Below, in pieces: positions 13,390-30,262 of a stretch of DNA of 61,384 nt. A model generated the notes under the pieces. It had not been told where the DNA came from. It saw nothing but the letters and a program-made list of their open reading frames with translations, and did no database searches. The DNA is from Campylobacteraceae bacterium (GTDB taxonomy: Bacteria; Campylobacterota; Campylobacteria; Campylobacterales; Sulfurospirillaceae): NCBI GenBank assembly GCA_027050775.1, contig JALUBH010000028.1, forward strand, positions 25,553-86,936, read 5' to 3'. The position numbers and the translations under genes were made by a program. Position 1 is the stretch's first letter, and every line of letters begins with the position of its first letter.

Positions 13390-13484
13390 TGGATATACAA
13401 ACAGGAACTATCGGTGTAGCAATTCTCAGTGCAGTCATACTAGGTATCGTTTTTTGGATTATTAAAAAGATAACAAGTATTTAA
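13389..13484 (+). CDS. Small single-span membrane peptide after mshG
   Basis: 31 aa (MDIQTGTIGVAILSAVILGI ... KKITSI). The ATG overlaps the mshG TGA (TGATG), so it is translationally coupled. It has one hydrophobic helix followed by a basic cytoplasmic end. Its TAA overlaps the convergent pilin gene stop by 4 nt. I do not recognise a family; it occupies the position of mshF in MSHA loci but is much shorter. A small pilus-platform accessory subunit is plausible. Confidence 0.6.
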   Translation: MDIQTGTIGVAILSAVILGIVFWIIKKITSI

Positions 13485-14071
13485 TTACAAGTCAAAGATA
13501 TATTGTAGTTTGCAGGTGCTGTTCCATTGTTGTCTATGAGCAAAAAATCTCCGGCAGTTATATCTTTGCCATTATAGCTACAGTTTTTATCAGGATTTGT
13601 ATAAAAAGCATATATCCAAAAATCATTACGATCAGGTTTGTTTGCTATATCGCTGTTTGGTGCTTTTGTGTCGTACCTTACACCATTTTGCGGGTCACTT
13701 GCAGGACCTGTAAATATAGATATATTGTAGTCACTTGCATTTATAGTGTTTTGCTTGTGAAAATTACTGTTTTTGCCTTTTAGGACAGCACCAAAAACTT
13801 TCCCATTTTTCGATAGAGTATCAGGATATCCAAGAGAGTTTAAAAGAGTTGAGCTTTGGTGATTTCCCCATGTGAAATCACCCTCATTTATGCTCCATTC
13901 ACCATTTGCACTCTCAAGTGCAGTAGAAACTGCTGAGATAGTTGCTATCTCAGCAGTCTTTTTTGCGCCGTCTCTCATGGATGAAAGCTTAGGAACCGCG
14001 ATGGAAGCGAGCACGCCAATGATAATAATCACAAAGATAAGTTCTATCATGGTAAATGCTTGTCTTTTCAT
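13481..14071 (-). CDS. MSHA-type pilin (major or major-like)
   Basis: 196 aa from the ATG at 14071, preceded by AAAAAAGAGAA as RBS; a longer form from 14095 adds MAKQKREF. The prepilin signal is MKRQA^FTMIELIFVIIIIGVLASIAVPKL, with Ala at -1 and Glu+5. The globular part ends with CSYNGKDITAGDFLLIDNNG and a final Cys (LTCN), so a C-terminal disulfide loop is possible. It is transcribed against the assembly operon, after a sister pilin. With the 14109-14843 gene it is the best candidate for the fibre subunit. Confidence 0.85.
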   Translation of the reverse strand: MKRQAFTMIELIFVIIIIGVLASIAVPKLSSMRDGAKKTAEIATISAVSTALESANGEWSINEGDFTWGNHQSSTLLNSLGYPDTLSKNGKVFGAVLKGKNSNFHKQNTINASDYNISIFTGPASDPQNGVRYDTKAPNSDIANKPDRNDFWIYAFYTNPDKNCSYNGKDITAGDFLLIDNNGTAPANYNISLTCN

Positions 14072-14108
14072 AAATTCTCTTTTTTGTTTTGCCATAATAA
14101 TCTATAGA

Positions 14109-14843
14109 TTACAATCCACGAACCATCCAATTTCTTATTGTATTGTCATATGCTTCATCATAAAATTGTATTTGTTGATATCTTGTAGGTTTTGTTCCGT
14201 TTACATCAACTAGCGTGATGCCCTCTGCCTCTGCTATTGTTGGATTTATACCACTAGCCGTGCTTCCTGTTACATTGATATCTACACCACTAGGATTAAA
14301 TACCCAAAAGTCATTTTTATCAGGTTTACCAGGTACATCTTGTCCTGGATGATCTACAGGATATCTTACGCCTGCTATAGGGTCACTTGCCTTTCCAGTG
14401 ATAACAACAGGGCAAGCATAAAGGCCGGCATGTGCTTTCCCATCATGAGCACTATAGCCCCAAATATAGCCGTCACTATACATTGGTATAAAAGCATGTA
14501 TTTTTAAATTTCTGACTTTTTTTGCTATTTTTGCAAGTACACTAAATGAGTCATTAGCTTTTTTAAATGCAATGCCATAAGCATTTTGGTCAGTTTTATT
14601 GGTTCCATTCATGTCAGCTTCAGAAAGATTATACCAGTTCACATTTGCATCGCCATAGTCTTCGTATCTTCCTTCTCTAGCAGCTACTACCGCACTATCT
14701 AATCCATCCATAGCCGATAATTCACTATTGACCTTTGCTCTATCCTTTACTCCATTGAATTTTGGTAGTGCAGTTGCAGCCAAAATTCCTATAATTATGA
14801 TTACAAAAATCAATTCTATCATTGTAAAACCATTTCTTCTCAT
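14109..14843 (-). CDS. MSHA-type pilin (major or major-like), first gene of the pair
   Basis: 244 aa. The signal MRRNG^FTMIELIFVIIIIGILAATALPKF is a canonical type IVa pilin N-terminus. The globular domain shares the (K)ASDPIAGVRY ... KPDKNDFWVF pattern with the next pilin (SDPQNGVRYD, KPDRNDFWIY), so the two arose by duplication. It is preceded by its own promoter (GAGTATAATC) and RBS AGGAG, separate from the assembly operon. This fits a highly expressed fibre subunit. Confidence 0.87.
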   Translation of the reverse strand: MRRNGFTMIELIFVIIIIGILAATALPKFNGVKDRAKVNSELSAMDGLDSAVVAAREGRYEDYGDANVNWYNLSEADMNGTNKTDQNAYGIAFKKANDSFSVLAKIAKKVRNLKIHAFIPMYSDGYIWGYSAHDGKAHAGLYACPVVITGKASDPIAGVRYPVDHPGQDVPGKPDKNDFWVFNPSGVDINVTGSTASGINPTIAEAEGITLVDVNGTKPTRYQQIQFYDEAYDNTIRNWMVRGL

Positions 14844-19553: not shown

Positions 19554-19586
19554 TTCTACATGTAGAGCATAGCTCTACATGTAGAA
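19554..19586. terminator. Perfect 15-bp inverted repeat between convergent genes
   Basis: The arms TTCTACATGTAGAGC and GCTCTACATGTAGAA surround a 3-nt loop (ATA). It separates the DUF255 gene from the convergent hyfB-like gene and even supplies the latter's last codons and TAG stop. It likely ends transcription from both sides, though U-tracts are poor. Each arm carries the CTACATGTAG palindrome found at seven other sites in the window. Confidence 0.6.
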
Positions 19587-21695
19587 AGATATGCCAAGAA
19601 ATACGAGCAGAGTTAAAATCGCATAACTAGCATAAGTATTTATCTTGCCACTATGCATTTTAGCCAAGAGATGTGATAGTTTTTTTGCAAAATTCATCAA
19701 TGGATATAGTACTAAACGATCGATTAAGTGTACCTCTTGTCGCTCTTGCTTGATACTTAAGCGAAAATGCTTTGATGCAGTCTCTTTTTGATTGCTTATA
19801 TTTGAGCGTAAAATCGTACTGAAAATGACTCTTACGGGTTGGGCAAATCCACTCGCCGTATATGTCATTTGAGGCAAAAGATTTTTTATACCCCCATCCC
19901 ATCTGGTTTTGTAAACCACAGTTCTTTTTCTAGCCACCAAAAGCCATACTAAGCCGACTGTCAGTCCAAAGAGTATCAAAAATGTTATGAGCATATATGA
20001 GGTTGACATAGCAAAAACTACGGGATTGTCCTTGCCTCCGCGATGCATCACTACCACTCCTCTACCATATAGTGTATTTTTACCTACTTGCGCTCCTATA
20101 TTGTGGAAATCATTAACAAAACCAGAAGGCAGTTTATCAGCTACTTTTTGATTATTAAAAAATGGAGGCACAAGAGCAGTTGTGGCAGAAGCACTTGTTA
20201 TAGGATAAACAGCTCTGTCTATCGTAGGAATTACAAATGTTGGCAATACGCCAAGCAAAAATGCAACAATAGCAAGAAGTGCCATAGGTGCTAGAGTAGT
20301 TTTTGTCACCTCTTTTGTTTTCTCTATGGATTTGGAGCGAGCCATCCCTAGAAAACTCATAGAAAAAGCACGGGTAAAGCAAGTGACAGTCAGACCGGCA
20401 GTAAGTGCTAAAAGTACACCGGCGATGATAAATGATACTTTTACACCTAGCGATGCTAGCTCTACACTGCGAAGTAAGGATTCAAGCGTAAGCCACTCGC
20501 TGACAAAACCGTTAAATGGTGGCATGGCCGATATGGACAGAACACCTATCAAAACAAAAAAACCGGTCCACGGCATTCTTTTGAGTAGTCCACCCAATTT
20601 ATCAAGACTTTTTGTTTTACTTTCATCTTCTATCACTCCTGCACCCATAAAAAGAAGAGTTTTGAAGACAGAGTGATTTAAAAGATGATACAATGACGCG
20701 ACCAATGCCATAGAAGCAGCGACCTTATGTCCGCTCGTGAGAAAAATCATACTAGCACCAAATGCAGTGATAATGATACCGGCATTTTCTATGGAGCTAT
20801 GAGCTAAAATAGTTTTAAAATTATCCTCTATGGTAGCATACAATATACCAATCAATGCGGTAATCGAGCCAACTATGAGCAGAATAACACCAAATCCTAC
20901 TTCAGACATAGGTAAAAAGTTGGCATTAACGCGGATGATTCCATAAAGTCCTAGGTTTAGTGTTGCACCTGCTATAAAAGGTATAAACGCCGTTGGAGTT
21001 ACACTATAAGCTCTTGAAATCCAAAAATTAAACGGTATTAATCCCCCTTTTATGCCAAAACCTAAAAAAGATAGTATAAATACACTCCATTGCATACCAA
21101 CGCTCAAGCTAGAAATACTAGCTTCCAATCCTTCAAAACTTAGTGTTTTTGCATTTGTTGCCAAAAGTAAAAAAGCGATAGCTATAGCCAAAGTTCCGGT
21201 TTCTCCGACAGCCAACATTATATATCCTGCTCTCTCGCTCTTTCCGCTGTTTACAAGAAGATAGATGAGTATAGACATAACTTCCCAAACCAAAAGAAAC
21301 AAAAAGATATTTGAAGAGATTAACACCAATATGACAAATATGATAAGGCTAAGAAACAAGACTAAAAGAAAACTGTTATTACTCTCTTTGATGTATGATA
21401 CGCGGGTTGAGGCAAATATCGAAGCCGGCAAGGTAACTATCGCTGTTGCAATCAAGAAAAAAGCGGACAAATAATCCACTCTTATACTTAAATAGCCGAT
21501 ATTTGGAATCATCCAAAGTGATGCGGTATAAATGGTTTTGCTAAAAAGAGAGTGGAGGGCAAATGATAAAAGAGCAACAGACCCAACAGATCCCGATATA
21601 CCCGCAATTTTTGCAGACATGTTTTTAGGCAACACAAGTATAGCTACGATTCCCGCAATATAAATCAAAAAGCTTATCAGTAACAAATCATCCAT
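19575..21695 (-). CDS. HyfB/NuoL-like proton-translocating membrane subunit of Ehr-type complex
   Basis: 706 aa from the ATG overlapping the upstream TGA (TGATG at 21695); a longer N-terminus is not needed. It is a polytopic antiporter-like subunit (proton_antipo_M core: LLVWEVMSILIYLLV, GFGIKGGLIPFNFWISRAYS, AHSSIENAGII). There is a long C-terminal extension with further helices as in HyfB/HycC. Conserved Glu in LVWEVMS and Lys in GIKGGLIPFN fit ion channel residues. It is the last gene of the six-gene operon. It should pump H+ or Na+, coupled to electron transfer by the peripheral arm. Confidence 0.87.
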   Translation of the reverse strand: MDDLLLISFLIYIAGIVAILVLPKNMSAKIAGISGSVGSVALLSFALHSLFSKTIYTASLWMIPNIGYLSIRVDYLSAFFLIATAIVTLPASIFASTRVSYIKESNNSFLLVLFLSLIIFVILVLISSNIFLFLLVWEVMSILIYLLVNSGKSERAGYIMLAVGETGTLAIAIAFLLLATNAKTLSFEGLEASISSLSVGMQWSVFILSFLGFGIKGGLIPFNFWISRAYSVTPTAFIPFIAGATLNLGLYGIIRVNANFLPMSEVGFGVILLIVGSITALIGILYATIEDNFKTILAHSSIENAGIIITAFGASMIFLTSGHKVAASMALVASLYHLLNHSVFKTLLFMGAGVIEDESKTKSLDKLGGLLKRMPWTGFFVLIGVLSISAMPPFNGFVSEWLTLESLLRSVELASLGVKVSFIIAGVLLALTAGLTVTCFTRAFSMSFLGMARSKSIEKTKEVTKTTLAPMALLAIVAFLLGVLPTFVIPTIDRAVYPITSASATTALVPPFFNNQKVADKLPSGFVNDFHNIGAQVGKNTLYGRGVVVMHRGGKDNPVVFAMSTSYMLITFLILFGLTVGLVWLLVARKRTVVYKTRWDGGIKNLLPQMTYTASGFAQPVRVIFSTILRSNISNQKETASKHFRLSIKQERQEVHLIDRLVLYPLMNFAKKLSHLLAKMHSGKINTYASYAILTLLVFLGISFYM

Positions 21696-22414
21696 CACTT
21701 TGTACCTCTTTTTATGTTTTTGCGTCCTGCAAGACTCAATAATCCATGTAAAATAGCAAGCGGAGGAGGTGGACATCCAGGCACCGTGATATCTACGGGT
21801 AATATACTAGAAACTCCATTTTCAGCGATAAAACCACCTTCAAAAACACCGCCGCTAAGAGCACAAGTTCCTACTGCCATCACCTTTTTTGGCGTAGGCA
21901 TGGCTTCATAAGCCTTTAGTAAAGCACCTTTCATCTGTTGGGTTACCGCACCTACTACAAGAAGTACATCTGCTTTTCTAGGGCTTGGAGTGATAAAAAA
22001 TCCCAATCTGTGCATATTATAAAGAGGACTGTTTAAAAGTTTTGTTTCATTTAGACATGCTCCACAATCTCCGCTATCAACCACACATATATGAAGTGAG
22101 TGCCCAAAAGTACTTGAAAAAGGAGTTGAATTTTTTTCAAATGATGCCCACTCAAATCCTTCGCTCCAAGACAGAGGCTCTTTTGTGTCTCTGCTACAAC
22201 GATAACAATGGATACAAAGCGAGGATTCCAAAAGCAGTTTTTCATCTGTTTTGTGTATAGCCCTTGTTGGACAAACCGAGATTAAATCATCACTGTTTAT
22301 ATTGTCTGTGATTTGCGGTAAACCGGGAGTAATTCCCGATGCAGTCTCTTCTTGCTTTGGATAACGAGTTGAGACAACACCGGTTTTTAACCCCTTTTTA
22401 ACCCAATAACTCAT
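21695..22414 (-). CDS. HyfI/NuoB-like small subunit with N-terminal ferredoxin segment (HyfH-HyfI fusion)
   Basis: 239 aa. The N-terminal part carries one [4Fe-4S] ferredoxin set: CPTRAI followed by CIHCYRC (about residues 48-76). The C-terminal NuoB-like domain keeps the four proximal-cluster cysteines: GDCGACLNE, GTCALSGG and VPGCPPPP. HyfH (two-cluster ferredoxin) and HyfI are normally separate; here a shortened HyfH appears fused to HyfI. It should pass electrons to or from the large subunit. RBS is AAGGAG, 9 nt after hyfG. Confidence 0.85.
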   Translation of the reverse strand: MSYWVKKGLKTGVVSTRYPKQEETASGITPGLPQITDNINSDDLISVCPTRAIHKTDEKLLLESSLCIHCYRCSRDTKEPLSWSEGFEWASFEKNSTPFSSTFGHSLHICVVDSGDCGACLNETKLLNSPLYNMHRLGFFITPSPRKADVLLVVGAVTQQMKGALLKAYEAMPTPKKVMAVGTCALSGGVFEGGFIAENGVSSILPVDITVPGCPPPPLAILHGLLSLAGRKNIKRGTK

Positions 22415-22423
22415 GCTAACTCC

Positions 22424-24001
22424 TTATCTGTCATTTTCAGCCACACTTTGCCCTAGCGTTGCCATGATAATCGGTAAATCTTGAAATGCAAAATTTTCAA
22501 TCGCAAGATGAAATCCATGCCAATTTGTAAAAGACGGTGTAAGCATACGGTATCTTTTCACCCTCTCGTTTTCATCTATCTCTATCCAGTGCCAAGCTGC
22601 TCCTCTTGGAGTTTCAACTCCGGCTAACGCGGTAGAAGCTTTGATATCTCCTTTGGCAAAAATTTCTCCTTTTGGCATTTTGGAGATAACTTGCTCCATA
22701 ATTTTTGCAGAAGTTTTGACTTCATCAAACAAAACTCTAAGCCTTGCATAGCCGTCACCTTCTATTTCGCATGAAGGCTCAAAATCCAGCTTATCGTATC
22801 CTAAATATGGCTGAAATTTTCTAAGGTCGTTACAATAATTTGATCCACGAGCCATCGGACCTACCAAATCGTGGGTTTTGGCTTCGCTTTTGTTTATGAC
22901 TCCTACCTCCTCTAATCTATCAAGAAAACTACTTGTATTGATTAAAAGATCTTTTATTTCGTCCAATCTGAGGATTATATTTTTGATTTTTCCTATGGCT
23001 TTTTGGCAAGATTTTTCATCGCAGTCTTTGCTCAGTCCTCCGATAACACACAATCCAAAAAAGTATCTGTGTACCGAGAGTTCACCGCTGAGTCTTAACA
23101 TCTCCTCTTCAAGTATGGCTACTTGGCTTGCCGCAACTACTAATCCTGTAGAGTTGCATATAGCTTCGATTGTGCTTATGTGACTTCGTATTCGTTCCAT
23201 CTCAGCGAAAAATATTCGCAGCATTTGGGCTCTTTTTGGAACTTTTATATCACTTGATGACTCAATCGCCAAACTGTATGCAAGAGCATGAGAAAAAGCA
23301 GAAGTGCCGGCATTTCTCTCTGCCAATAGAATCACATCTTTTACTCTTCTCCCAACAGCTATTTTCTCAACACCTCTGTATTTGAAAAACAGCCTTGGAA
23401 AAGCACGGATAATCTCTTCGCCTACAGTCTCTAATTGTATATTGAGTGATTCTGCTTCACCGGAAAACACTGGACCTATTGGCATGATAAAAGCACCTTT
23501 TAAATCAAGCACTCTTCTTGGTTGCCAGTCTAGTTTTGGTTTGAGGTTATTTAAAGCCGCTTTTTTATCAAAAGTGGAGCTCATGGGTTTTACACCCTCT
23601 TGCCAAATATCATCATGCAAGATAAAATCTCCCAAGCGAGGATGTCCCTCAAAGTTTATGCCAAAAAGATCTTCGGCCTCTCTTTCGTGCCAATCTGTTG
23701 CATGTACAAGAGTGCTGACACTTGTAAAATTTGGATCTTGCAGTGCTGAAGTTGTTATGATTTTTATGTATCCTATCTCTTTTGATCCCACAAAAAGATA
23801 ACAAAGCTCCCAGAGTTTTTTTTCTTGTGCTATCAATCCTGCAAAATGATACTTTTCTTGATTGAAAAGCCAATCACAAACAAGTGGCACTTGCTCTTTG
23901 TCGCATTGAACTATCATACTTTTAGAGTGAGCATCAATATATGGTTTTGTTTTAAATTTCCATTTCGATAGGAGAAGTTCCATTAGTCTAGCTTTTGTCA
24001 T
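22424..24001 (-). CDS. HyfG/NuoCD-like large subunit without Ni ligands (Ehr type)
   Basis: 525 aa. Residues 1-140 are the NuoC-like domain (ATDWHEREAEDLFGINFEGHP). The rest is the NiFe-hydrogenase/NuoD large-subunit fold. The usual ERICGICxxSH motif reads ERNAGTSAFSH (228-238), so both cysteines are gone. The usual C-terminal DPCxSC reads GQSVAE (517-522) and the chain stops three residues later. All four NiFe ligands are thus missing and no maturation genes are nearby. The protein cannot be a standard NiFe hydrogenase and fits energy-converting hydrogenase-related (Ehr) complexes. RBS is AGGAGG. Confidence 0.88.
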   Translation of the reverse strand: MTKARLMELLLSKWKFKTKPYIDAHSKSMIVQCDKEQVPLVCDWLFNQEKYHFAGLIAQEKKLWELCYLFVGSKEIGYIKIITTSALQDPNFTSVSTLVHATDWHEREAEDLFGINFEGHPRLGDFILHDDIWQEGVKPMSSTFDKKAALNNLKPKLDWQPRRVLDLKGAFIMPIGPVFSGEAESLNIQLETVGEEIIRAFPRLFFKYRGVEKIAVGRRVKDVILLAERNAGTSAFSHALAYSLAIESSSDIKVPKRAQMLRIFFAEMERIRSHISTIEAICNSTGLVVAASQVAILEEEMLRLSGELSVHRYFFGLCVIGGLSKDCDEKSCQKAIGKIKNIILRLDEIKDLLINTSSFLDRLEEVGVINKSEAKTHDLVGPMARGSNYCNDLRKFQPYLGYDKLDFEPSCEIEGDGYARLRVLFDEVKTSAKIMEQVISKMPKGEIFAKGDIKASTALAGVETPRGAAWHWIEIDENERVKRYRMLTPSFTNWHGFHLAIENFAFQDLPIIMATLGQSVAENDR

Positions 24002-24005
24002 AAAA

Positions 24006-25451
24006 TCAACCTCCTATTGTTTTAGCTGCAAGTTCTATAAGATTTTGCAGATTTTGAGGTATGTAAATACCAAGTAAAATGATAGGTAAAGAAGCAATTG
24101 CAAAGGTTATTTTGCTACTTAAGGGCAAAGAGAAAGAGCTTTTATTCTTAGTCCCGTCATCTCCAAAGACCATGCTGCTGACATGGTACATAATAGCAAA
24201 AAATGCAATCGCTATAAAAGTTACGAGCAAGCCTATTATCAGGTATTCACCCTTTTCTAAGCCCGCTTTTAGGATAGAAAATTCACTTAAAAAGAGTGCA
24301 AACGGAGGTGCTCCGGCGATTGAGAGTCCGCCAAAAAGAAAAGTTATACCAACCAATGGTGATCGTTGTATCAGGTTTTTAACCGATGCTATATCTCTTG
24401 TACCGGCGTACATCAAGACACCACCTGCTGCATAAAAACAAAATGATTTTGTAACGGCATGTGCGATTATCTGTGTAGTTGCAGCCAAATTCGCATCATG
24501 CCCGCCTAAACCGAATGCTACAAGGATGATACCCATCTGCTCTACTGTTGAAAAAGCAAAAAGCCTTTTGTAATCCTTGACTTGCAATATCAAAAAAGAG
24601 GCAACTCCTACGGAAATTAAACCAAATATCATAAGCCAATCATTTACATCTATACTGTTGGATGCCGTAATTATAGGCAAGAGTCGAAGTATGATATACA
24701 GTATTGCTGTTGTTTCTATACCTGAAAGCATAGCACAAACAGGACTTGGAGCTTGAGAGTGTGCATCGGGTAACCAAGTATGTAAAGGTACTAAACCGAT
24801 TTTTGCTCCAAAGCCCACAAATATAAAGATAAATGATGCTCTTAAAAGCACAGGTGACATTTGTGGTGCAATATCTTGTAAACCCTGCCAAGTGTAGTGC
24901 TCTATGCCTGCTTGTCTTGCAGCCCAGTAAAGAATCAAAAATCCCAATAGTGCGATGGCAGCTCCCATGATGGTGAGGACTATGTATTTCCAAGCTGCTT
25001 CTATGGCTGCGTGTGTATTTTGAAAACCAACCAATAAAACAGAGAAAAGTGTTGTTAGCTCAACTGCTATCCATACGGTATTTGGTTCTTGGATTAGTGG
25101 TAAAATAAGCATTGAAAAAGCAAATAGGTTGAAATTTAAGAAATATTTTTGCTCCTCTTTCTTGTCTTTAAAGTTCATATATCCTATAGAAAAAATAGAT
25201 GCGGTAAAGTATATGAAAGATATCAATAAAAGTATAACCGAGCCCATGGCATTAAGTGCAATCCAGTTTGGAATCGCGATGAGCGTGTGAGTTGATGAGT
25301 CGAGTATATTTGAAGCCGTCAAAATAGCAAGAAGCAGTGTCAAAAAAGATCCAAGTAGTGTTATCTTCGCTCCCCAAGAAGCACTTTTTATAGGTATGAC
25401 AGACAATAGCGAGGTCATTAGTGAAAGAGATATAAGCCATATAAGTATCAT
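24006..25451 (-). CDS. HyfF/NuoN-like antiporter subunit
   Basis: 481 aa polytopic proton_antipo_M protein. Key segments are AVELTTLFSVLLVG (Glu in TM5), GFGAKIGLVPLHTWLPDAHS (Lys in TM7 region), FAFSTVEQMGIIL and FLFGGLSIAGAPPFALFLSE. These are the residues used for ion movement in complex I-like antiporters. HyfF and HyfB give the complex two pump-type subunits. It lies between HyfE and HyfG with a 2-5 nt gap and RBS AGGAGG. Confidence 0.88.
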   Translation of the reverse strand: MILIWLISLSLMTSLLSVIPIKSASWGAKITLLGSFLTLLLAILTASNILDSSTHTLIAIPNWIALNAMGSVILLLISFIYFTASIFSIGYMNFKDKKEEQKYFLNFNLFAFSMLILPLIQEPNTVWIAVELTTLFSVLLVGFQNTHAAIEAAWKYIVLTIMGAAIALLGFLILYWAARQAGIEHYTWQGLQDIAPQMSPVLLRASFIFIFVGFGAKIGLVPLHTWLPDAHSQAPSPVCAMLSGIETTAILYIILRLLPIITASNSIDVNDWLMIFGLISVGVASFLILQVKDYKRLFAFSTVEQMGIILVAFGLGGHDANLAATTQIIAHAVTKSFCFYAAGGVLMYAGTRDIASVKNLIQRSPLVGITFLFGGLSIAGAPPFALFLSEFSILKAGLEKGEYLIIGLLVTFIAIAFFAIMYHVSSMVFGDDGTKNKSSFSLPLSSKITFAIASLPIILLGIYIPQNLQNLIELAAKTIGG

Positions 25452-25452
25452 T

Positions 25453-26133
25453 TTATGCCTCCTCTTTTAATTTTGAAAGATTGCCGATGGAAGTTGTCCC
25501 GATTTGTTCATGAACACTTCTTGTTAAAATTCCTATGACAAAGGTTAGGATAAGGATATCAAAAGCCAATGCCAACTCTGAGATAAGTGGCAAATCAGGC
25601 GCTATCGCAACACCGGCAAAAAAAGCTCCGTTTTCCATAGCCAAAAGCCCCAAAAGCTGAGGAACAGCCTCTCTCCTGACAGTTAGCGTATATGCCCCAA
25701 GAAAGAGTCCTGCCAATCCAACAGGCACATTTATATGAACAACGCTTGATATATTTTGGGTCTCTACCCAAGGCAGGCTGAAGAAATAAGCCGCTATTGT
25801 CAATATAAGAGCAATTATGAGGGATGTGGGGATATTTAAAACCTGAGTAATCTCTCTTTTGGTGTATATCTCTTTTTTAACCATTCGTTTCAAAAGCCAT
25901 GGCAGTAGAAAAACTTTTGTAATTAGGTTGATAGCGCCGACAGCCATCAAATCCAAAGAAAATGGTTTTAAGCCTAGCAATACCGCAGAAATTACCAAAA
26001 ATATAGATTGCAATATGAAAAACTTCAAGCTCGCCTTTATCTGCCTAGTTGCTACTATACCAAAAGTCGAGACGATAAATAGACCGCCTGCTAGGGCATT
26101 TAGATTTGTGATAAGAGGTGTAATATTACTCAT
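25453..26133 (-). CDS. HyfE-like membrane subunit
   Basis: 226 aa with about seven transmembrane helices. The N-terminal half is NuoJ/HyfE-like and the C-terminal half NuoK-like (RREAVPQLLGLLAMENGAFF with LALAFDILILTFVIGILTRS), the fusion that defines HyfE. The ENGAFF glutamate matches the conserved NuoK Glu. Its start overlaps hyfC by 4 nt. Confidence 0.87.
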   Translation of the reverse strand: MSNITPLITNLNALAGGLFIVSTFGIVATRQIKASLKFFILQSIFLVISAVLLGLKPFSLDLMAVGAINLITKVFLLPWLLKRMVKKEIYTKREITQVLNIPTSLIIALILTIAAYFFSLPWVETQNISSVVHINVPVGLAGLFLGAYTLTVRREAVPQLLGLLAMENGAFFAGVAIAPDLPLISELALAFDILILTFVIGILTRSVHEQIGTTSIGNLSKLKEEA

Positions 26134-27095
26134 AGGTTTGCTCCATGTTGATAAAAAATACTTGCTAACATAGCAACGACTGCTATCACAAAAGCAGCAC
26201 TTAAAAATTCGCTTATCCTAAAGAGTCTGAGTTTTGCCAGTGATGACTCTACTAACACAAGAAAGAGTATGAAAAACAAAACTTTTATCAGTATGAGCGG
26301 GATTGCCAATAAAATAGAGCCCCAAGACAAATCGGTTGCTAATCCCCACGGGGCTAAAAGTACATTTGAAAATATAATAATCAATACAAAAAACTTCATC
26401 CATCCACCCCATTTCATAAGGGCAGCTCCATATCCGCTATACTCTAAATCCTTTGACTCTTCTATCATTGCAAGTTCAAAGTGACCTGAGGGATTATCCA
26501 CAGGGATTCGCCCTTTTTCAGCCAATATTAGCATGACAAATGAAATCAAAAGGAGTAAATGCGAAGGCTCAAAGAAGTTTGATACAGGAGTTACCCATCT
26601 TTGTTGGACTATATAAGGTATGGTAGAGTTGGCAACAAAAGAGACCGTAAAAAATACTATAAGAAAGACAGGCTCTGCTAAAAAGCCAACCATCCTAGTT
26701 CTGCTAGCACCCATGGGACCATAAGGATTTGCTGTATCAACGGCTGAGAGAACGGCAAAAAAACCACCCAACGCAAGAACAAATCCGGCACCCACCATAT
26801 CATCCATAAATGCCCAAAACAGTGGATAGTCAGTCAAAACAGGTATGAGAAGAGCCACAAACATAGGTGCAATAAACACGATAAAAGGGGTGATTCTAAA
26901 AATCCATGAACTATCTTGCGAAATGACTTGGTCTTTGTGAAATAGTTTATAAAGATCATAATAAGGCTGAAAGATACTAGGACCATGTTTTGATTGGACA
27001 ATCTCTTTTAAGCGATTTAGTATCCCCATGATTAGTGGAGAAAAAAACATGACGACTAAGACTTGCAGGATGTTAAATAAGATATATTTACTCAT
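26130..27095 (-). CDS. HyfC/NuoH-like membrane anchor subunit
   Basis: 321 aa with about eight transmembrane helices. NuoH signatures are SKHGPSIFQPYYDLYKLFHK near the N-terminus, GRIPVDNPSGHFELAMIEE in the middle, and DTANPYGPMGASR. It anchors the peripheral arm to the membrane and forms the first ion channel. It is the first structural gene of the operon, with RBS AAAGGAG. Its ATG overlaps the TGA of a 25-codon ORF that follows the fluoride riboswitch. Confidence 0.9.
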   Translation of the reverse strand: MSKYILFNILQVLVVMFFSPLIMGILNRLKEIVQSKHGPSIFQPYYDLYKLFHKDQVISQDSSWIFRITPFIVFIAPMFVALLIPVLTDYPLFWAFMDDMVGAGFVLALGGFFAVLSAVDTANPYGPMGASRTRMVGFLAEPVFLIVFFTVSFVANSTIPYIVQQRWVTPVSNFFEPSHLLLLISFVMLILAEKGRIPVDNPSGHFELAMIEESKDLEYSGYGAALMKWGGWMKFFVLIIIFSNVLLAPWGLATDLSWGSILLAIPLILIKVLFFILFLVLVESSLAKLRLFRISEFLSAAFVIAVVAMLASIFYQHGANL

Positions 27096-27169
27096 CCAAA
27101 ACTCCTTTGTGAAAAATAATAGATTGGTAAATGGCAGGGTAATGGTATGTAAGGATAAATTTGAGGCAT
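27092..27169 (-). CDS. Possible leader ORF between fluoride riboswitch and hyfC-like gene
   Basis: 25 codons, MPQIYPYIPLPCHLPIYYFS and five more residues. A strong RBS (AAGGAGA, 9 nt upstream) precedes the ATG. The TGA overlaps the hyfC ATG (ATGA), so reading it would couple translation to the operon. No homologue is recognised. It could be a true leader peptide or a by-product; conservation in relatives would decide. Confidence 0.4.
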   Translation of the reverse strand: MPQIYPYIPLPCHLPIYYFSQRSFG

Positions 27170-27225
27170 ATGTGTCGCTCTCCTTGTAAATCTAAAATAA
27201 TAACTTTTGTTTTTTTGATTAAAAA

Positions 27226-27280
27226 CATAGGAGTCATTATCTCGTTTAGAGCAGATTTACAGGGGAACTCCATCCCCAAA
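27226..27280 (-). promoter_or_regulatory. Fluoride riboswitch (crcB motif) upstream of the Ehr operon
   Basis: Read on the minus strand: GGGGATGGAGTTCCCC, then TGTAAATCTGCTCTAAACGAG, then ATAATGACTCCTATG (segments given separately). This has the crcB-motif signatures: GGNGAUGG with a closing stem (GGGG/CCCC), a variable hairpin (CUC/GAG), and UAAUGACUCCUA. The GGAGU of the first part can pair with ACUCC of the last, the defining pseudoknot. No terminator with U-tract follows. The CUCCU end is instead complementary to the SDs AAGGAGA (27179-27185) and AAAGGAGT (hyfC), suggesting translational control that opens with fluoride. Confidence 0.93.
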
Positions 27281-27289
27281 AATTTCGTA

Positions 27290-27318
27290 ATTATATTACA
27301 GTAGCCTAGAAAAGTCAA
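27290..27318 (-). promoter_or_regulatory. sigma70 promoter of riboswitch-hyf operon
   Basis: Minus strand: TTGACT (27318-27313), 17-nt spacer, TATAAT (27295-27290). Transcription should start about 7 nt later, right before the aptamer. The near-consensus -35 is uncommon for this phylum. Confidence 0.8.
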
Positions 27319-27331
27319 GTCTGAAAAACAC

Positions 27332-27365
27332 TTTTTCGCACAAGGTTAATACCTCATGCGAAAAA
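27332..27365. other. Inverted repeat downstream of htpG
   Basis: TTTTTCGCA and TGCGAAAAA flank an inner AGGT-TAAT-ACCT stem. It lies between the htpG stop and the hyf promoter. The U-run is on the 5' arm rather than after the hairpin, so it is not a classic intrinsic terminator. Confidence 0.45.
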
Positions 27366-29356: not shown

Positions 29357-29737
29357 TTATATATATAATTTCTTGAAGAGAATGATAGCGATTATAGTAG
29401 ATGCTAAGGTTAGTGTGACATTTAGAGTTATGTTTACTGCAGCCCTATAGTAATCTCCATCTTGAAGCATATTTACATTCTCTAGAGAAAATGTAGAAAA
29501 AGTGGTCAATGCTCCTAAGAATCCGGTCATTACAAAAGCTTTATATTGAGGTTCAATCATATTTTGAAAAAACATAGCCATGAAACCTATGATAAAACTA
29601 CCGAGTATATTTACACTTAGCGTTCCTATAGGAAAAAAAATATTCACATGTTTTTGAACAAAACTAGCAATCAAAAACCTCGATATTGCACCTAAAAAAC
29701 CGCCAAAACCGATATATAACAAAAGAGATAGGTTCAT
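29357..29737 (-). CDS. crcB: CrcB/Fluc fluoride ion channel
   Basis: 126 aa with four transmembrane helices. Family motifs are GGFLGAISRFLIASFVQKH, GTLSVNILGSFIIGFMA and TGFLGALTTFSTFSLE. The Asn of NILGS and the Phe/Thr-Ser box FSTFS line the fluoride path in Fluc channels. It exports fluoride as a dual-topology dimer. It follows a DUF190 gene at 7 nt. No fluoride riboswitch precedes this gene pair; the only one seen is 2 kb downstream, before the hyf-like operon. Confidence 0.94.
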   Translation of the reverse strand: MNLSLLLYIGFGGFLGAISRFLIASFVQKHVNIFFPIGTLSVNILGSFIIGFMAMFFQNMIEPQYKAFVMTGFLGALTTFSTFSLENVNMLQDGDYYRAAVNITLNVTLTLASTIIAIILFKKLYI

Positions 29738-29744
29738 CGTGTTC

Positions 29745-30080
29745 CTATTTGTGCTTATATTTTATGACTTCGGTATCACACATAGTCATGATACCCTCTT
29801 CAATCATATAGTCAATTTTGTCTATAAACTCTACTATTTTTTCTTCAGAGTCAATTACCTCTACTATAAGAGGCATCACTTGAGATATGGTAAAAATATT
29901 GAAGCTTCTTAGCTCACTATGAGCCCCTATGCCAGCCACCCCTTTAAATACCGTGGCACCTGCGACACCATTTTCCTTGACCTTTTTTAGTATCATTTCC
30001 CATAATGGTTTGTTTTCAAATTTATCTTGGTTGTCTATGTAGATACGAAGTATCTTTTTTTTACCCATGTACCGTTTCAT
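29745..30080 (-). CDS. DUF190 (PII-like) protein linked to crcB
   Basis: 111 aa from ATG 30080 (MKRYMGKKKILRIYIDNQDK), RBS AAAAAGGGGAG. A longer TTG-started reading runs through the repeat hairpin and is unlikely. The pattern LWEMILKKVKENGVAGATVF with GIGAHSELRSF is the DUF190 fold, related to PII signalling proteins, commonly encoded beside crcB. It may sense a small ligand and modulate the channel; this is not proven for the family. The SD lies inside a member of the GAGGAATTTT-hairpin repeat family. Confidence 0.88.
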   Translation of the reverse strand: MKRYMGKKKILRIYIDNQDKFENKPLWEMILKKVKENGVAGATVFKGVAGIGAHSELRSFNIFTISQVMPLIVEVIDSEEKIVEFIDKIDYMIEEGIMTMCDTEVIKYKHK

Positions 30081-30262
30081 TTTATCTCCCCTTTTTATGT
30101 GGGCAAAGCCCAAGCAAAATTCCTCGTGACTAAAGCTTTAGCTGTCTCCAAGAAATTGCTATTTTATGTGCTAAAGCATGAGCTATCGCTCTGCGTCATT
30201 TGATTTTTTATCCAATTTTTGTGAAGTAACCTAGCAACTAAAGCATTGTCATTTTTGAGTGA
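30081..30262 (-). repeat. GAGGAATTTT-hairpin-SD repeat and degenerate copies before DUF190 gene
   Basis: On the minus strand the proximal copy reads GCTTTAGTCACGAGGAATTTT, then TTGGGC-TTT-GCCCA hairpin, then AAAAAGGGGAG before the ATG. Farther upstream ATGCTTTAGTTGCTAGGTTA and CATGCTTTAGCACATAAA look like decayed cores. No gene is seen in these 180 nt, and no terminator after plsC. Confidence 0.7.

Follow-up and report, generated by a model that had tools for sequence, protein, structure and literature searches.

The window analysed here is a stretch of 61,384 nucleotides from a Campylobacteraceae bacterium (GenBank assembly GCA_027050775.1, contig JALUBH010000028.1, positions 25,553 to 86,936 of the forward strand), and it contains a fluoride riboswitch followed on one strand by six genes, hyfC, hyfE, hyfF, hyfG, hyfI and hyfB, encoding a hydrogenase-like membrane complex whose large subunit has lost its nickel ligands. 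There is very little doubt that the locus joins a fluoride switch to an Ehr-type complex, a member of those hydrogenase-like assemblies without Ni-Fe ligands whose function is unsettled (PMC6349859).

The fluoride switch, its operon and the lost nickel site

The aptamer occupies positions 27221..27286 of the minus strand and matches the Rfam fluoride model RF01734 in Infernal (45.4 bits, E 2.1e-9; gathering score 34), which bears out a first-pass annotation of this DNA that had placed a crcB-motif aptamer directly before the operon. The near-consensus promoter claimed there was also found, a sigma-70-like TTGACT-17-TATAAT with 11 of 12 matches (27290..27318, minus strand). Upstream of it stands a terminator-like hairpin of htpG (27332..27365, minus strand), and with its own promoter and this hairpin the switch therefore forms a separate transcription unit.

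Between aptamer and hyfC, direct reading reveals a probable leader open reading frame (ORF) of 25 codons (MPQIYPYIPLPCHLPIYYFSQRSFG*; 27092..27169, minus strand), preceded by the Shine-Dalgarno sequence AAGGAG at 27180-27185 and ending in a stop codon that overlaps the hyfC start (ATGA). The same layout, with differing peptides, recurs in the congener G1058 and at the loci L043, L048 and L050. In the predicted ligand-free minimum-energy fold, bases of the aptamer pair with the Shine-Dalgarno sequence of the leader ORF, and enforcing the aptamer partly frees it. Several relatives carry a terminator that overlaps the 3' strand of the aptamer, the usual arrangement of an ON switch.

All six operon genes lie on the minus strand. 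The membrane subunits HyfC (26130..27095; NuoH/HycD-like, and the best conserved of the clade's subunits) and HyfE (25453..26133; hydrogenase-4 type) are followed by the antiporter-like HyfF (24006..25451; NuoM/MrpD type), by the large subunit HyfG (22424..24001), a NuoC-NuoD fusion, by HyfI (21695..22414), a NuoB-like proximal [4Fe-4S] subunit fused to a single-cluster ferredoxin domain, and by the NuoL-type antiporter-like HyfB (19575..21695), whose longest ORF extends to 21776 and whose likely start is the ATG at 21695. The gene set and order proposed earlier thus stand, while the interval given for the operon, 21695-27318, omits hyfB (19575 to about 21695).

In alignments whose register was fixed with solved chains of HycE, MBH and complex I, the window HyfG has A..S at the positions of the CxxC cysteines and S..E at those of DPCxxC, compared with MBH (6cfw_L) and with HycE (7z0s_E), its best solved relative (E 5e-76). 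Sixteen close HyfG sequences agree, with A/S..S/T at the N-terminal and S..E at the C-terminal positions. The chain ends in '...DR', where mature hydrogenases stop, and the rest of it contains no intact ligand motif, so that the earlier reading of a large subunit devoid of all four nickel ligands, and hence of an Ehr-type complex of group 4-type subunits that is not a hydrogenase, is confirmed. The ligands are all absent from the large subunits of the fluoride-linked clade described below (20/20); Hyf controls taken from elsewhere in the class have CGIC and DPCYSC intact, and the loss is therefore no alignment artefact. At the lost site, the clade carries an ASFGL-type motif, which in the window reads ATLGQS as against ASFGLS. 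Where complex I has its quinone tyrosine, HyfG has an invariant glycine (Gly232), and the quinone histidine is missing.

A mobile, fluoride-linked clade

A genome-wide search returned relatives of 56-62% identity in drafts named Planctomycetota, Thermodesulfobacteriaceae, Gammaproteobacteria, Rhodospirillales, Spirochaetaceae, Lentisphaeria and Acidobacteriota, and further relatives at 43-46% in other Planctomycetota drafts. Relatives with the same gene order are assigned to seven phyla other than the window's own, by names that are those of the draft genomes, in which misbinned contigs are possible in single cases. The order is C-E-F-G-I-B wherever a contig holds the whole operon. Nine of these loci have a switch over the cut-off upstream of the operon (L043, L047, L048, L049, L050, L051, L052, L054, L055) and one has a weak match at the right place (L046, 22.6 bits), while five lie on truncated contigs that are uninformative on the switch (L044, L045, L053, L056, L057). 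L053 had looked like a switch-less exception and was set aside, its contig starting inside the enolase gene that separates switch from hyfC at L052. Switch and operon are also present in G1058, where the contig ends within hyfG, and on plasmids of Caballeronia, Burkholderia (two) and Mycobacterium branderi, which carry more distant C-E-F-G-I-B operons. Every same-order locus with upstream DNA therefore has the switch, 15 of them over the Rfam cut-off and one weakly.

In contrast, none of nine sister Ehr operons, which are ordered B-C-E-F-G-I and likewise lack the nickel ligands, has a switch. Adjacency by chance would be expected at about 1e-4 per genome, and a conservative count of 14/16 versus 0/9 gives 2.7e-5 in a Fisher test, a value to be read with the caution that the relatives are not independent. 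In the HyfG tree, the fluoride-linked members form one clade (support 100/97) beside the B-first Ehr group, and the HyfC and HyfF trees show a matching split; the plasmid members sit on long branches, so that how deeply they join is less certain than the separation of the close group. The window itself shows the C-E-F-G-I-B order, the upstream switch, the ferredoxin-fused HyfI, the ASFGL-type motif in its ATLGQS form and monophyly with the others, and we regard these operons as very probably a clade dedicated to fluoride. Two adjacent B-first operons of the Ehr kind, their large subunits also without nickel ligands, were observed elsewhere in the window genome (G000:C27 82000-101500; L060).

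The clade is rare and patchy, since no close HyfC beyond the loci already found emerged from 246 genomes of Planctomycetota and 398 of Pseudomonadota. Among 397 genomes of the class, no HyfG relative exceeded 33%, and the window genome alone was over the RF01734 cut-off, in a scan whose strict filters may lose weak switches and whose sample did not contain G1058. A plasmid search found no HyfC above 60% identity, and it yielded two more distant switch-bearing branches.

Comparison with congeners demonstrates that the operon is mobile, and that in the window it was acquired horizontally by a later insertion. G1058 and G061 possess crcB (a diverged copy in G061), htpG and DUF255, the latter two separated by no more than a short hairpin region, and in G1059 htpG adjoins DUF255; in the window, switch and operon occupy exactly this gap. 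In G1058, they lie at another site, beside bc1 complex genes, and the operon occurs in two of ten genomes from the genus. Its G+C content is slightly raised, at 0.37-0.39 versus about 0.30-0.37 around it. The window crcB, encoding a Fluc fluoride channel (29357..29737, minus strand), and the DUF190 gene paired with it (29745..30113, minus strand) lie upstream of the operon behind htpG, without a riboswitch of their own and outside the control of the operon switch. Because the crcB, htpG and DUF255 genes of congeners form a group with no operon among them, crcB is an old neighbour, and its proximity, which the first-pass annotation had counted as an argument, loses its force. Farther off, at 13481-14843, the window holds two adjoining type IV pilin-like genes with the N-terminal motif FTMIELIFVI.

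The partners of the operon elsewhere are more telling. In a planctomycete (L052), switch, phosphoesterase, enolase and hyfCEFGIB stand in a row, and at L054 and L057 enolase and dynamin genes lie downstream of hyfB. In M. branderi, eno and UspA genes are near the operon, and a NUDIX gene separates switch from hyfC. On a B. cenocepacia plasmid that typing classed as conjugative (NZ_CP073671.1; L128), a fluoride-resistance island of about 30 kb includes the complex together with a CLC-family channel, crcB, DUF190, HAD, two pyrophosphatases (ppa), dynamin, MutS and two enolases. The dynamin-family GTPase recurs beside switches and complex in planctomycetes and Burkholderia (L054 15732-17735, L057 5300-7324, L128 17842-19947); to our knowledge, no part in fluoride stress has been assigned to it. 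A second RF01734 switch over the cut-off in the 2.19-Mb window genome lies directly before two MutS-domain V genes (G000:C31; L059 9434-12511), and this MutS pair is also found in Burkholderia, Caballeronia, Mycobacterium and planctomycete fluoride loci, a pairing with the fluoride switch known since Weinberg 2010 (PMC2864571). A true link of the operon to fluoride stress, as first proposed, is thus supported by the clade-wide switch and by the enolase, pyrophosphatase, MutS and CrcB genes that share its operons and islands. The idea that the complex substitutes for CrcB was not supported. CrcB is encoded in 10 of 15 host genomes; the other five are drafts of unstated completeness, four of which have CLC proteins, none with a clear fluoride signature.

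Redox centres, membrane arm and possible function

Residues of HyfF and HyfB were followed at positions that we take to be those of NuoL and NuoM in complex I. In the window and in clade A, the TM5 Glu, TM7 Lys, TM8 Lys, His/Lys pair and TM12 Glu (TM, transmembrane helix) are all kept, those of the window HyfF being Glu131, Lys217, Lys295 and Glu390 for TM5, TM7, TM8 and TM12, respectively. In clade B (planctomycetes, L051-L055), the TM5 Glu is replaced in both subunits (E to T, E to R) in all five members. The redox centres of HyfI also erode in parts of the clade. The four ferredoxin-domain cysteines (48, 67, 70 and 73) are kept in all members examined and the four proximal-cluster cysteines are intact in clades A and C, the window included; clade B has Val in place of Cys120 and a new Cys189, and M. 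branderi (L063 11652-12443) has N, D, D and A at the four proximal-cluster positions, with its ferredoxin cysteines kept. Linkage to the switch is retained in both M. branderi and clade B despite these losses. Within clade A, HyfC is conserved at 83%, versus 58-69% for the other subunits, and has the clade-typical charged residues H179 and K215; Lys228 was discarded as clade-specific, HycD having a Lys there too. Taken together, the loss of redox centres and of the TM5 Glu and the high conservation of HyfC suggest that the function shared by the clade probably resides in the membrane arm.

We consider it an even call, judged from sequence, that the operon encodes a fluoride-induced ion-translocating complex of the Ehr type that defends pH and membrane potential while hydrogen fluoride (HF) enters the cell. 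Fluoride enters as HF and acidifies the cytoplasm, its export depends on the proton-motive force, and Na+/H+ antiporters are the commonest genes under fluoride switches after the exporters themselves (PMC11139923); a complex that moves ions would suit these conditions. Rising cytoplasmic fluoride would fold the aptamer and turn the operon on, in the relatives by preventing formation of the overlapping terminator and in the window probably by making the ribosome site accessible on the leader ORF, which is coupled to hyfC. The complex, without a NiFe or recognisable quinone site, would here work with the ferredoxin-type cluster, the proximal cluster and the charged antiporter residues that it keeps, and would most likely move H+ (or Na+/H+) across the membrane, holding pH and membrane potential as HF leaks in and thereby serving the CrcB-driven expulsion of fluoride. 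Ion transport, its direction and its driving force are what we infer, and for the window genome the odds on ion translocation as the mechanism appear to us evenly balanced.

Several points weigh against this proposal. No electron acceptor is identifiable. The loss of the TM5 Glu in clade B and of the proximal cluster in M. branderi makes a single redox-pump mechanism for the whole clade doubtful, and the complex may defend the cell by something other than moving ions.

The strongest competitor, less probable than ion pumping but to be taken seriously, holds that redox chemistry is gone, the peripheral arm surviving as a remnant with a structural or regulatory role and the membrane arm acting as a gradient-driven secondary transporter of cation/H+ or even F-/H+. 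Consistent with it are nickel ligands and quinone residues missing from every member, switches kept where proximal-cluster cysteines have been lost or replaced, and a HyfC by far the best conserved subunit, with its H179 and K215. However, the ferredoxin cysteines kept in all members examined and the proximal cluster intact in clades A and C suggest that electrons still matter there, K228 of HyfC is not unique, and M. branderi is a single example. Somewhat more tentatively still, the clade may be a dedicated, horizontally spreading fluoride-resistance branch of the complex I superfamily, some lineages of which would have dispensed with redox chemistry and become gradient-driven, possibly for F-/HF transport.

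An unlikely explanation is that a substrate is reduced or oxidised at a remodelled NiFe pocket, as in the repair of a metal cofactor damaged by fluoride. S519 and E522 of HyfG are invariant in clades A and B, the residues flanking the former DPCxxC motif are strictly conserved, and the window protein has a complete Fe-S path; in clades C and D, however, the former-pocket residues are unconserved (ASFGLTIAGCAR, ASFGLCYAGVAM), and no substrate candidate is apparent. The AlphaFold model of HyfG has a mean pLDDT of 74 and falls below 50 at residues 159-207 and 489-525, so that the region of the lost site is modelled with low confidence. A formate hydrogenlyase or hydrogenase still at work, turning metabolism towards formate or H2 under fluoride, as the listing of such genes under fluoride switches would have it, is scarcely credible given the missing nickel ligands, set against intact Hyf controls of the same class, and the lack of a formate dehydrogenase gene from all operons examined. 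Equally implausible is a switch that serves another gene, with the operon merely downstream: the genes between switch and hyfC at L052 and in M. branderi would suit it, but in the window no gene other than the leader ORF stands between switch and hyfC, and the pairing recurs across the clade far beyond chance and is absent from the sister operons.

Comparison with known systems

Formate hydrogen lyase has been listed as a fluoride-switch gene since Weinberg 2010 (PMC2864571), as the first-pass annotation had noted, and a 2024 review reads the fluoride-linked enzyme as oxidising formate for ATP (PMC11139923). The genes so named and the fluoride-linked Ehr loci are very likely the same or overlapping. 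In every case examined, and as far as sequences tell, the 'formate hydrogenlyase' of the fluoride regulon appears to be a hydrogenase-dead, horizontally spread Ehr clade. A common member of that regulon would thereby be recast, correcting an accepted reading as formate metabolism, which no examined locus supports. In the open-access literature, to which our search was limited, we found neither a fluoride link for Ehr complexes nor fluoride-linked genes named Ehr; fluoride would give these complexes a testable physiological setting. The clade suggests that complex-I-type machinery was recruited for halide stress, and its stepwise loss of redox centres offers a natural experiment on membrane arms without electron transfer.

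Escherichia coli formate hydrogenlyase and hydrogenase-4 (Hyc, Hyf) have homologous subunits, HycE being the best solved relative of HyfG and HycD that of HyfC, whereas the window complex lacks the nickel ligands and the C-terminal maturation extension, and no formate dehydrogenase gene was present in the operons examined, to which that search was confined. Respiratory complex I shares a homologous core (NuoB, C, D, H, L and M); unlike it, the window complex lacks the NADH module and the quinone histidine and has Gly232 in place of the quinone tyrosine. The FRM island of Enterobacter cloacae, ppaC-uspA-eno-gpmA-crcB, is likewise horizontally acquired and switch-controlled and shares eno, pyrophosphatase, UspA and CrcB (PMC5533749); it has no hyf-like complex, which the Burkholderia and Mycobacterium islands add. 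The Ehr complexes share with the window clade the group 4 hydrogenase architecture without Ni/Fe-binding residues and the antiporter-like subunits (PMC6349859); the window clade differs from them in being a separate lineage with hyfB last, a ferredoxin fused to HyfI, an ASFGL-type motif and a fluoride riboswitch.

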